Source of the DNA: a virus
Reading direction: 5' to 3' (one strand)
IMG/VR virus record: IMGVR_UViG_3300042887_000857
Span: 1 to 28,997 of that record
Length of the DNA: 28,997 nucleotides
The notes beneath the pieces are model-generated. The model ran no database searches and was not told the origin of the DNA. It was given only the letters and a program-made list of their open reading frames with translations. The first letter of the stretch is position 1. Every line of letters starts with the position of its first letter. Shown here one piece after another: positions 560 to 6,846 of this stretch. A program made the translations under genes and the position numbers.

Positions 560-994
560 TCATTTATATTCATAGTTTACTGTTTCTTCATTTTCTCTGA
601 AGACTACAGCACCATTTTTAATATGAAATCTTTTTGCCATTTCAGTTTTAGGACTGAGAGTAACAAATCTTTCAATGCCTTTTCTGTTATCTTTTATATA
701 CGATACTGCATCAAAGATCAATGTTCTACCAGCACCTGGCTTATAACTCCATATAGTATAGAAAATTGCAACTTCAGGATTTTCAGTTTTCTCAAACAAT
801 TCTGCTTCGCTTGTTGGAATTGTTTTCTGATAACTCACACAAGTTATAGCCTGCACCTTATCGTCTTCATCGCGCATAACAAAGATATCTTTATTGCTAC
901 CGACACGATCAACATGAGGTATGTTGGGACGTACCGGATCTTCGCTTAGAAAATTAAAAAATTTATCAGTTAAATCACTTATAAGATGCAACAC
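560..994 (-). CDS. GNAT-like N-acyltransferase fold protein
   Basis: A 144-residue cytoplasmic protein. It resembles small acyltransferase-like proteins of T4-type phages: beta-rich N-terminal half, FVMRDEDDKVQAITCV strand pair, a central segment with KPGAGRTLIFDAVSYIKD at about residues 85-102 (where GNAT enzymes place the acetyl-CoA pyrophosphate loop), then FVTLSPKTEMAKRFHIKNGA, similar to the end of GNAT domains. The substrate cannot be predicted. The start appears to be GTG at 994 with an AGG about ten bases upstream; an ATG three bases earlier is in another frame. The gene lies between tRNA-Val and tRNA-Pro. The family call rests on motif resemblance only. Confidence 0.6.
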   Translation of the reverse strand: MLHLISDLTDKFFNFLSEDPVRPNIPHVDRVGSNKDIFVMRDEDDKVQAITCVSYQKTIPTSEAELFEKTENPEVAIFYTIWSYKPGAGRTLIFDAVSYIKDNRKGIERFVTLSPKTEMAKRFHIKNGAVVFRENEETVNYEYK

Positions 995-2924: not shown

Positions 2925-3042
2925 TTTGGCATTACGAACTTTAGCCGTATCTCTTACGCGGATACCGAAAGCAACATCGTTGATGCGCCGTATTCTACAC
3001 GCCAGCACCTTTTGCTGGATTGACACACCTGACGGTGCGAAT
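2925..3042 (-). other. Structured spacer between tRNA-Asp and the Tyr-like element
   Basis: About 118 bases with no convincing reading frame but several strong hairpins on the minus strand: CCAGCA/TGCTGG near 3002-3018, CACC/GGTG near 3025-3036, and GTATC/GATAC near 2947-2965. Its last bases (GTTCGTAAT then GCCA, 2926-2939) are complementary over nine bases to 3205-3213, upstream of the Tyr-like element, so a tRNA-like closing stem with CCA could enclose the whole 2926-3213 segment. Confidence 0.4.
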
Positions 3043-3131
3043 TGGTGGGTCTTGATGGTAACGCTCCACGTGGCAACTTCCTTTCGTAACAAAGCCGACG
3101 GATTTACAGTCCGCTGAAAGGGGCAAGACCC
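3043..3131 (-). tRNA. tRNA-Tyr-like element (anticodon GTA) without normal D arm
   Basis: An 8-bp closing stem GGGTCTTG/CAAGACCC followed by A and CCA makes a tRNA-like acceptor. The anticodon arm CGGA-CTGTAAA-TCCG is that of a bacterial tyrosine tRNA. Only about ten bases separate acceptor and anticodon arm, so no D arm fits. Instead CCTTTC there pairs with GAAAGG (3080-3085 with 3116-3121) beyond the anticodon arm. The T-arm-like hairpin GTGG-AGCGTTA-CCAT has the same odd loop pattern as the neighbouring tRNA-Asp. It could be a divergent tRNA, a decayed one or a mimic. Confidence 0.4.
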
Positions 3132-3138
3132 ATACTAA

Positions 3139-3229
3139 TACCATATAGAAACACACTATCCTAGACTGACTACTTTGGCACAGGCTTTGCTAAAAAGCGA
3201 TACTGTTCGTAATGTGTTTTTATATGGTA
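3139..3229 (-). ncRNA. Stem-closed element downstream of tRNA-Lys
   Basis: Arms at 3139-3154 and 3214-3229 pair over 16 bases with one mismatch and enclose about 59 bases containing a GCTTT/AAAGC hairpin (3184-3199). There is no open frame. The arm nearest tRNA-Lys includes its 3' ACCA (3225-3228), so in the precursor the mature tRNA end would be base-paired. Nine bases at 3205-3213 can pair instead with 2931-2939, so alternative folds compete. Confidence 0.5.
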
Positions 3230-3299
3230 GGGGCACAGAGAATCGAACTCTGATTAATAGGTTAAAAGCCTACTACTTTAGCCGTTAAGTTATACCCCC
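3225..3299 (-). tRNA. tRNA-Lys (anticodon TTT)
   Basis: A cloverleaf with acceptor GGGGGTA/TGCCCCT, discriminator A and encoded CCA. The anticodon stem GTAGG/CCTAT encloses CTTTTAA, giving TTT. Its first ten bases are also the end of a small protein gene, and its 3' end belongs to a long inverted repeat. Confidence 0.95.
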
Positions 3300-3421
3300 A
3301 AAGGTGTTTGCTTTTGCGCCTTTCGCAATGCCTTGTTAGACTTGCGGTGCGCTCCCGCTTTTTTAAATAACGCCAAGATAACGAACGGGTTACGTTTCTT
3401 AGCGATCTGTTTTCGCTTCAT
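3290..3421 (-). CDS. Small very basic phage protein overlapping tRNA-Lys
   Basis: A 43-residue protein with about 14 Lys/Arg residues: MKRKQIAKKRNPFVILALF, then AGAHRKSNKALRKAQ. The start is well supported: AAGGAG lies six bases upstream of the ATG. The composition and the HRKSNKALRK stretch recall small basic proteins of many tailed phages whose function is unknown; nucleic-acid binding is possible. The last ten bases, including the stop TAA, are the first ten bases of tRNA-Lys, so 5' maturation of the tRNA would cut this mRNA. Confidence 0.7.
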   Translation of the reverse strand: MKRKQIAKKRNPFVILALFKKAGAHRKSNKALRKAQKQTPLGV

Positions 3422-3443
3422 TACTTTCTCCTTAAAAATGTTT

Positions 3444-3518
3444 TGGTGGAGGTGGAGAGAATCGAACTCTCAATTTCTGGTTGCAAACCAGATGTGTTCC
3501 CATTAGCACTACACCCCC
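3444..3518 (-). tRNA. tRNA-Ala (anticodon TGC)
   Basis: A cloverleaf with acceptor GGGGGTG/CACCTCC, discriminator A and encoded CCA. The anticodon stem TCTGG/CCAGA encloses TTTGCAA, giving TGC (codon GCA). Confidence 0.95.
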
Positions 3519-3524
3519 ATTATG

Positions 3525-3671
3525 ATTTGTTTAGTGTTATCGCGCCTATTTGCCAACAATGTTGCAAGCACTGGCAAGCGAATAGCAGTTATATCAGACA
3601 GTTTCGGTCGCACCCTTACTGTCGCGTAGTCATAGCGTCCTATGACGATACCTTGATAACACTAAACAAAT
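3525..3671 (-). ncRNA. Structured RNA candidate with perfect 17-bp closing stem
   Basis: Arms 3525-3541 and 3655-3671 are perfect 17-base inverted repeats. Inside are three further helices: a 5+5-bp arm built from CTATT/AATAG and TGCCA/TGGCA, GACAGT/ACTGTC, and GTCATAG/CTATGAC with a four-base loop. The layout suggests a multi-branched RNA of about 147 bases. It has no reading frame or U-tract, so it is neither a gene nor a simple terminator. It sits between the next element and tRNA-Ala in the operon, so it should be transcribed with them. Known background: the T4 tRNA cluster also encodes small stable RNAs of unknown role. Confidence 0.65.
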
Positions 3672-3680
3672 AATAATTTT

Positions 3681-3868
3681 GTACCATTAATAAACATACT
3701 GGCAAATCCCTTCCTAAGATATTGCATTTGCTCTGCTCACTTTTGTTATCACGTATTCCTTGGACTTGAGACTTAACTCTGGAATGCAAACATTGTTAAT
3801 GGGTTACCCCATTGGTTTGACTTACTTCCATCCGCAACGGTACTGGGCAGTATGTTTATTAATGGTAC
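3681..3868 (-). ncRNA. Structured RNA candidate with perfect 21-bp closing stem
   Basis: Arms 3681-3701 and 3848-3868 are perfect 21-base inverted repeats around about 146 bases. Inside, TTGCATT (3722-3728) pairs with AATGCAA (3783-3789), and AATGGG/CCCATT forms a tight hairpin near 3799-3814. No frame is convincing. The right arm overlaps the 3' end of tRNA-Glu by six bases, including its CCA, so the precursor would hide that end in a duplex. A nine-base spacer separates this element from the 17-bp element downstream. Confidence 0.65.
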
Positions 3869-3937
3869 ACCGTACCAGAATCGAACTGGTCTTTTCGCCT
3901 TGAAAGGGCAACGTCCTAACCGATAGACGAACGGTGC
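3863..3937 (-). tRNA. tRNA-Glu (anticodon TTC), first tRNA of the operon
   Basis: A cloverleaf with acceptor GCACCGT/ACGGTGT, discriminator A and encoded CCA. The anticodon stem TTGCC/GGCGA encloses CTTTCAA, giving TTC. It is the promoter-proximal tRNA, 13 bases after the boxA-like sequence. Confidence 0.95.
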
Positions 3938-4676: not shown

Positions 4677-4976
4677 TCATTGAATGAATTGTTTCACTAA
4701 GAAACTTTTCACTTCACTCGCATAGCGAAAACTCTTTATAAACTTCTTACCATTAATCCTATACTGCACTTCTACATTCTTAGGTGCTTTCACTAGGACT
4801 GCACCATAACAATCTTTTGATAACCCAAATGGTATCACATATGCATCACCTTTGTCAAGTTTTTGCTTGCGGTAACCATTTGCGCCTTTGATTCGATCTA
4901 GCGCACCGAATCTCACGGTGTCTAAAATCTCTGTGGCAATCGATTGCCTAGGACCCATTCCATCAAAATACATCAT
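4677..4976 (-). CDS. Conserved phage protein of unknown function
   Basis: A 99-residue basic protein, probably cytoplasmic. It contains FDGMGPRQSIATEIL near the N-terminus and a beta-rich middle (DAYVIPFGLSKDCYGAVLVKAP...VQYRINGKKFIKSFRYA). It has no signal peptide or membrane segment. Its ATG overlaps the TGA of the upstream gene by one base, pointing to coupled translation; it is the last gene of the unit starting at 6471-6499. I do not recognise a family with a known role. Confidence 0.65.
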   Translation of the reverse strand: MMYFDGMGPRQSIATEILDTVRFGALDRIKGANGYRKQKLDKGDAYVIPFGLSKDCYGAVLVKAPKNVEVQYRINGKKFIKSFRYASEVKSFLVKQFIQ

Positions 4977-6507: not shown

Positions 6508-6846
6508 TCACAGATACAGAGGACCAGTCCAACGAACGGTGTAGCCACCATCCAGAATGTTACCGCGAGCCGCGTTACGTGCAGGAGCCGCCCAACCAGC
6601 CGCTTTCAGAATGTCGCCTTTACGGAATTTCTTGTCCGTATCAGTCTTCACAATAAAACCCCAAACGGAAGAACCAGTAACAACTTTGATATACTTGCTA
6701 CCTTCATCAATACGAATGCCATTGATAAACTCATCAAGCATACGGGCTTGAATCTCGGTGCGAGGTTTACCGCTTAACGTTTGCCAACCTTCATAGTCAG
6801 CAACAATGTCATTCTTCAAGGTTTCGAGGGCTTCGTTCATCATCAT
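6508..6846 (-). CDS. Conserved phage protein with SH3-like fold
   Basis: A 112-residue protein beginning MMMNEALETLKNDIVADYEGWQ. The C-terminal half (KYIKVVTGSSVWGFIVKT, then KFRKGDILKAAGWAAPARNAARGNILDG) is a pattern repeatedly seen in phage proteins of unknown role and suggests a small beta-barrel: hydrophobic strands with a KKFRKGD turn. The start at 6846 follows GGAG by three to four bases; the next two Met codons are also possible starts. It has its own promoter (6877-6904) and appears monocistronic. Confidence 0.7.
   Translation of the reverse strand: MMMNEALETLKNDIVADYEGWQTLSGKPRTEIQARMLDEFINGIRIDEGSKYIKVVTGSSVWGFIVKTDTDKKFRKGDILKAAGWAAPARNAARGNILDGGYTVRWTGPLYL

Follow-up and report, generated by a model that had tools for sequence, protein, structure and literature searches.

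Stalked structured RNAs in a viral tRNA array: a pseudoknotted RNA family and its partners in T4-type tRNA clusters

What occupies the interval between tRNA-Glu and tRNA-Ala in the tRNA array of the IMG/VR virus record IMGVR_UViG_3300042887_000857? An earlier note on this 28,997-base record (the window, that is, the whole stretch of DNA analysed here) had placed two elements there, each closed by a long perfect stem. We find that the two-RNA observation is larger than first noted. The element adjoining tRNA-Ala, which we call A, is a member of a 152-nt RNA family, class I, for which we can define a secondary structure, a pseudoknot and a conserved neighbour, tRNA-Glu; the family has no Rfam match and, within the part of the literature covered, is apparently undescribed. 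The element adjoining tRNA-Glu, B, represents a family rarer than class I.

ARAGORN detects 20 tRNA genes in the window, every one on the minus strand, so that the transcribed order is tRNA-Glu (TTC; 3863-3937), B (3680-3869), A (3519-3677) and tRNA-Ala (TGC; 3444-3518), with A and B also on the minus strand, in the same direction as the tRNAs. The tRNA-Glu directly upstream of B is supported by ARAGORN, Rfam and the inverted repeat, and the tRNA-Ala directly downstream of A by ARAGORN. The closing stem of A comprises the 17 perfect base pairs reported before (3525-3541 with 3655-3671) and extends to 22 of 23 pairs (3519-3541 with 3655-3677); that of B, given as 21 bp, has 22 perfect pairs (3680-3701 with 3848-3869). 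Stable folding of both elements also held up, with z-scores of -5.5 for A and -5.3 for B and none of 200 dinucleotide shuffles equally stable. Each RNA is enclosed by an uninterrupted duplex of about 20 bp, as in a stalked RNA processed by RNase III. The placement of the elements between the two tRNAs needs amending on two points: the 5' arm of B starts inside tRNA-Glu, as its 3' end UGUACCA (3863-3869), and the 3' arm of A stops exactly at the first base of tRNA-Ala. A third stalked element (3139-3229) had been missed. Neither A nor B matched any family when the window was searched against Rfam 15 at gathering and permissive thresholds, which settles a check proposed earlier.

To characterize class I, we used a covariance model (R1) seeded by seven members, the window sequence among them; most of the sequences that confirm the family were not seeds. 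R1 matches the window at 3522-3674 with 161.8 bits (a score obtained on a seed), and A shows the helices P1 to P3 and the P3-loop pseudoknot that define the class. P1 is the closing stalk, with its 5' arm at 3655-3677 and its 3' arm at 3519-3541. The inner half of the 5' arm (3655-3663, AGUGUUAUC) is near-invariant, and the outer half covaries. P2 (3629-3646) is a 7-bp hairpin with a GACG loop, paired in 100% of cells and doubly changed at 5 of 7 pairs, and P3 (3597-3623) is paired in 99.5% of cells, with 5 of 6 pairs doubly changed. In the pseudoknot of A, GCGA in the P3 loop (3608-3611) pairs with UCGC at 3578-3581. A further hairpin, P4 (UUGCCA...UGGCAA, 3550-3577), was recognized by inspection of the fold and alignment and left out of the pair counts, as this region aligns poorly across the family.

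Covariation in homologous tRNA clusters, whose absence would have refuted the earlier reading, is very strong for A and includes the pseudoknot. Double changes were already seen at 26 of 44 predicted pairs in the seven-member alignment. Among 92 distinct sequences, 98.6% of 3,944 base-pair cells are paired, against a mean of 77.9% after shuffling. Compensatory changes on both sides occur at 30 of 43 pairs, and the covariation score reaches 0.531, compared with 0.163 for shuffled alignments and at most 0.082 for slid controls. The P3 loop is complementary to the downstream strand in 99 of 99 sequences, using three different 4-mer pairs (GCGA/UCGC, GCCG/CGGC and GCCA/UGGC). Sequence conservation has a distinct pattern: the unpaired core bases are near-invariant, like inner P1 (mean top-base frequency 0.96), and outer P1 (0.71) and the P2 and P3 stems (0.53 and 0.61) vary by compensation.

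The family is present on more than 100 viral contigs besides the window. R1 found 15 sense members in loci selected by gene content; a 19-base motif, AGTRYTATYARGGTATCGT, matches at least 120 viral stretches, and R1 matched every one of the 104 newly fetched motif loci to which it was applied, although in three the sequence ends within the RNA and the match is a fragment. At the sensitivity used, no class I RNA was detected in 84,980 bacterial genomes, where a single match to a related 18-base motif was not confirmed by R1. The T4-type capsid protein gp23 is encoded on 11 of 16 large contigs examined, and not on the window fragment itself. All 10 large contigs that carry class I have it in single copy.

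Homologues of B occur in near-identical locus L006, in L181/L205, L189, L230 and L231, and lie directly upstream of class I in every case. Here too the stem shows compensatory changes, with 9 of 21 pairs doubly changed across five sequences; the inner helices, one hairpin excepted, are too conserved for covariation to be tested. The stems of both A and B are intact in L006 as well as in diverged relatives. A profile survey of the element classes reveals the usual layout: tRNA-Glu, then an optional slot 1 holding class IV or B, then slot 2 holding class I, II or III. Slot 1 contains class IV in 60 loci and B in 10, never both; slot 2 contains class I in 135, class II in 23 and class III in 4, with I and II together in two loci. 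Among the chains, Glu-IV-I (26) and Glu-IV-II (16) recur most often. These proportions are biased, because part of the set was selected with the class I motif and some loci come from the same contig; the mutual exclusivity is less affected. Classes I and II may be distant homologues, judging from the slot they share and a common sequence, GCAAAUAG.GC, found immediately ahead of the stalk's 3' arm in both (window ~3536-3553; class II in L055:6122-6253).

Are such stalks a general property of these arrays? Using the S11-peptidase gene of the array as query, we retrieved 11 loci. Across the array, L006 and the window are 99.5% identical, and L006 retains both A and B; the other loci are about 77% identical at the protein level, and in them the tRNAs are rearranged and different stalked elements occupy different junctions. 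A run of 17 AT-rich bases, TGTTTATTAATGGTACA, has matches in eight contigs besides that of L006, probably by chance. The neighbouring 148-aa protein as query gave 80 loci. In 276 nonredundant tRNA-tRNA spacers we counted 67 long stems, most of which fall into recurrent classes whose stalk begins at the CCA of one tRNA and ends at the next tRNA. Under a stricter redundancy filter, stems scoring at least 16 occur in 30 of 161 tRNA-tRNA spacers; among 322 shuffles there is none, and among 322 segments from elsewhere in these loci there is one. When relatedness is ignored, elements that start at a tRNA end are present in 38 of 57 arrays with at least eight tRNAs, and follow tRNA-Lys in 20 of 50 cases, tRNA-Glu in 14 of 44 and tRNA-Leu in 14 of 95; they are rare or absent after the remaining tRNAs, with none after eleven tRNA types (0 of ~660). 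The third element of the window (3139-3229, minus strand) follows tRNA-Lys, its 5' arm beginning with the UACCA end of that tRNA. It is of the short class C, whose stems recur with different cores: L011 has the same stalk around another core. A T-arm resembling that of tRNAs (GGUUCGAAUCC) is found in some of the short stalked elements, as in L044:3656-3756 and in L074 after tRNA-Lys (~2331-2428), which suggests tRNA remnants or tRNA-like RNAs under a stalk.

Inverted ends that recur around different cores, in units of 70-250 nt, are also what non-autonomous mobile DNA elements resembling MITEs would display, their termini merely mimicking an RNA stalk. For class I we reject this reading on copy number and orientation: one copy in each of the ten contigs, and no antisense copy in the survey of the classes and class I loci. 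Internal covariation, the pseudoknot and a conserved place after tRNA-Glu point the same way, and the reading, largely refuted for classes I and B, is very improbable overall.

The relation of class I to its tRNA neighbours bears on a second alternative. Across 103 distinct loci with class I, every tRNA lies on the strand of the RNA, and class I follows tRNA-Glu directly in 43 and through one intervening element in 25. Where it directly follows a tRNA, P1 pairs with A76 in 50 of 51 cases, C75 in 49, C74 in 47 and the discriminator base N73 in 43, with only 30 at N72 and 16 at N71: the stalk uses the single-stranded end of the tRNA and fades at the acceptor stem. Stalks running from a CCA to the next tRNA, and carrying one core or another, might simply be processing spacers that offer RNase III sites or protect CCA ends, with cores as filler. 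We consider this unlikely. Most tRNA junctions have no such element, and the class I core is under strong constraint in both structure and sequence, pseudoknot included. Furthermore, nature has separated one class I RNA from the tRNAs: in L153 it lies between two protein open reading frames (ORFs) at 110.7 kb, about 64 kb from an array of 25 tRNAs at 42-47 kb. A copy kept so far away, together with the selection on the core, makes a role as spacer only improbable; class I is probably more than a tRNA spacer. Immediately upstream of this relocated copy is a second hairpin, shorter and also formed by an inverted repeat (GCCATTGT...ACAATGGC, L153:~4733-4790), so the two elements seem to have moved together.

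A third possibility is that the RNAs act in cis, as the put RNAs of phage HK022 do in anti-termination, protecting the transcript or letting RNA polymerase pass long untranslated tRNA arrays. Compact folds, always in sense and in single copy, within long untranslated transcripts would suit such a role, and in the window A and B come after the first tRNA. Their position is not fixed, however: the share of array tRNAs lying upstream of class I ranges from 5 to 67% in 18 arrays, and the L153 copy stands between protein genes. We therefore give this explanation a rather small chance.

We lean, with some reserve, towards the view that A and B are stable trans-acting RNAs, freed when both strands of their stalks are cut within the tRNA transcript. 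Both would be transcribed as noncoding RNAs within the tRNA precursor, each bracketed by its stalk of about 20 bp. A double-strand-specific RNase, most likely host RNase III, would cut the stalk, freeing the neighbouring tRNA ends and leaving a compact product of about 130-190 nt, which for A would include the pseudoknot. During infection the released RNA would act in trans; its near-invariant unpaired core would probably bind a protein or an RNA of host or phage, and the RNAs of slots 1 and 2 would work as a pair. What the sequences establish is the structures, the pseudoknot of A, the covariation, the selection on the core and the sense orientation, along with the link mainly to tRNA-Glu, the single copy of class I, the alternative slot classes and one relocated copy. 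From these we infer stalk cleavage, stability of the products, action in trans and a target; binding through the invariant core is suggested by conservation alone.

Excision by RNase III, which the earlier note had proposed, is plausible by analogy. Where rRNA genes share an operon with tRNAs, RNase III cuts a long duplex that encloses the rRNA, and the Escherichia coli enzyme has been reported to act in T4 tRNA maturation (PMC4810235). With a continuous duplex of about 20 bp in addition, RNase III is the natural candidate, the likeness to the stalks of bacterial rRNA operons being one of design, without homology, and cleavage of A and B a prediction. Two points weigh against release and action in trans. 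The usual linkage to tRNAs leaves room for a possible role in cis, and the nearest T4 counterparts, RNAC and RNAD, have no stalk, so that the route of excision must differ at least there.

RNAC and RNAD are RNAs detected from the T4 tRNA region whose roles are reported as unknown (PMC9697503, PMC3014915). They correspond to the species 1 and 2 RNAs (NC_000866, 70908-71171) and are encoded in the order tRNA-Arg, rnaD, rnaC. The comparison with T4 drawn in the earlier note thus stands for arrangement, two tandem non-tRNA RNAs (119-139 nt in T4) with a tRNA immediately before them in the operon of a T4-type phage, but fails for sequence and for the closing stem. R1, which tests for element A only, finds no match in the T4 tRNA region, the T4 RNAs lack a long closing stalk, and RNAC has a tRNA-like T-arm. 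An 8-mer common to T4 rnaC and class II, CGUAAGCC, was judged a possible chance match. A second parallel is with GOLLD and ROOL, structured noncoding RNAs without known function that phages and prophages carry, frequently close to tRNA islands (PMC12286853). A and B are likewise structured RNAs of unknown function in phage tRNA clusters, but GOLLD and ROOL are far larger, many GOLLD RNAs exceeding 800 nt, and the window has no Rfam match to either. A retron-like ncRNA was also entertained, purely for its resemblance. Taken with the arrangement of RNAC and RNAD, this link of GOLLD and ROOL to tRNA islands indicates that the kind of phage RNA is known; the families and their shared design are apparently new.

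Do cultured phages carry anything similar? At the sensitivity used, class I itself was not found in them: blastn of classes I to IV, B and one short class C element against 50,697 cultured phage records gave no hit, and R1 gave no significant match on the fetched tRNA regions of T4, EJP2, Munch, PG7 and CHI14. PG7 and CHI14 do contain an unannotated 105-nt stalked element before tRNA-His. The PG7 spacer is made up of two modules and has matches in 459 phage records, among them many T-even phages of Escherichia and Klebsiella, and the stalk is present in RB18, G4507, REP3, SA21RB, KSKp, vB_Ent31, PS49, Merlin, Moon, PM2, Ursula and Melville. In an alignment of nine members, 97.1% of stalk cells are paired and three pairs are doubly changed, a modest covariation, and Moon, Merlin, PM2, PS49 and Ursula hold different cores beneath a stalk of this type. 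These pre-tRNA-His elements share the design, not the sequence, of A and B. With RNAs of matching design in cultured E. coli phages, processing and function become directly testable. Together these data suggest that T4-type tRNA clusters carry structured RNAs missed by annotation, often stalked onto tRNA ends, and T4 RNAC and RNAD, known for decades without a function, may be one case of a common feature. A more speculative proposal, which we regard as doubtful, is that slots 1 (IV or B) and 2 (I, II or III) hold interchangeable parts of a two-RNA machine released from T4-type tRNA operons and directed at one conserved host target, for example translation, RNA turnover or a tRNA-cutting defence, with RNAC/RNAD and the T-even pre-His RNA as other versions.

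Several minor features were noted along the way. In PG7 (L242), the tRNA-Met annotated at 6666-6760 overlaps a sequence resembling T4 rnaC (CCGUAAGCCGAGUAGCGUUUUUGACGGAACGU) and is probably a misannotation. In the window, a weak Rfam match to permuted tmRNA at 3290-3471 (E 0.03, below the cut-off) was rejected as a shadow of tRNA-Ala, and an inverted repeat at 750-767/999-1016 was judged a chance occurrence, one arm lying inside a coding ORF. At 3040-3135 on the minus strand lies what is probably a tRNA-Tyr, with a GUA anticodon, a long variable arm and an unusual T-arm; ARAGORN missed it, as did Rfam at its cut-off. Between tRNA-Ala and tRNA-Lys, a small basic ORF (~3293-3425, minus strand) overlaps the start of tRNA-Lys and has a Shine-Dalgarno-like AAGGAG (MKRKQIAKKRNPFVILALFKKAGAHRKSNKALRKAQKQTPLGV). 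An insert of about 500 nt with coding potential separates tRNA-Gly from tRNA-Arg in L006 (11724-12229) and is absent at the corresponding site of the window (~190-195). Finally, the protein of about 148 aa used as query above (window 560-994, minus strand; L009:11020-11463) occurs within phage tRNA arrays and has weak similarity to the Pfam MCD C-terminal domain; its relatives are encoded by 283 viral stretches, making it a good marker of such arrays.
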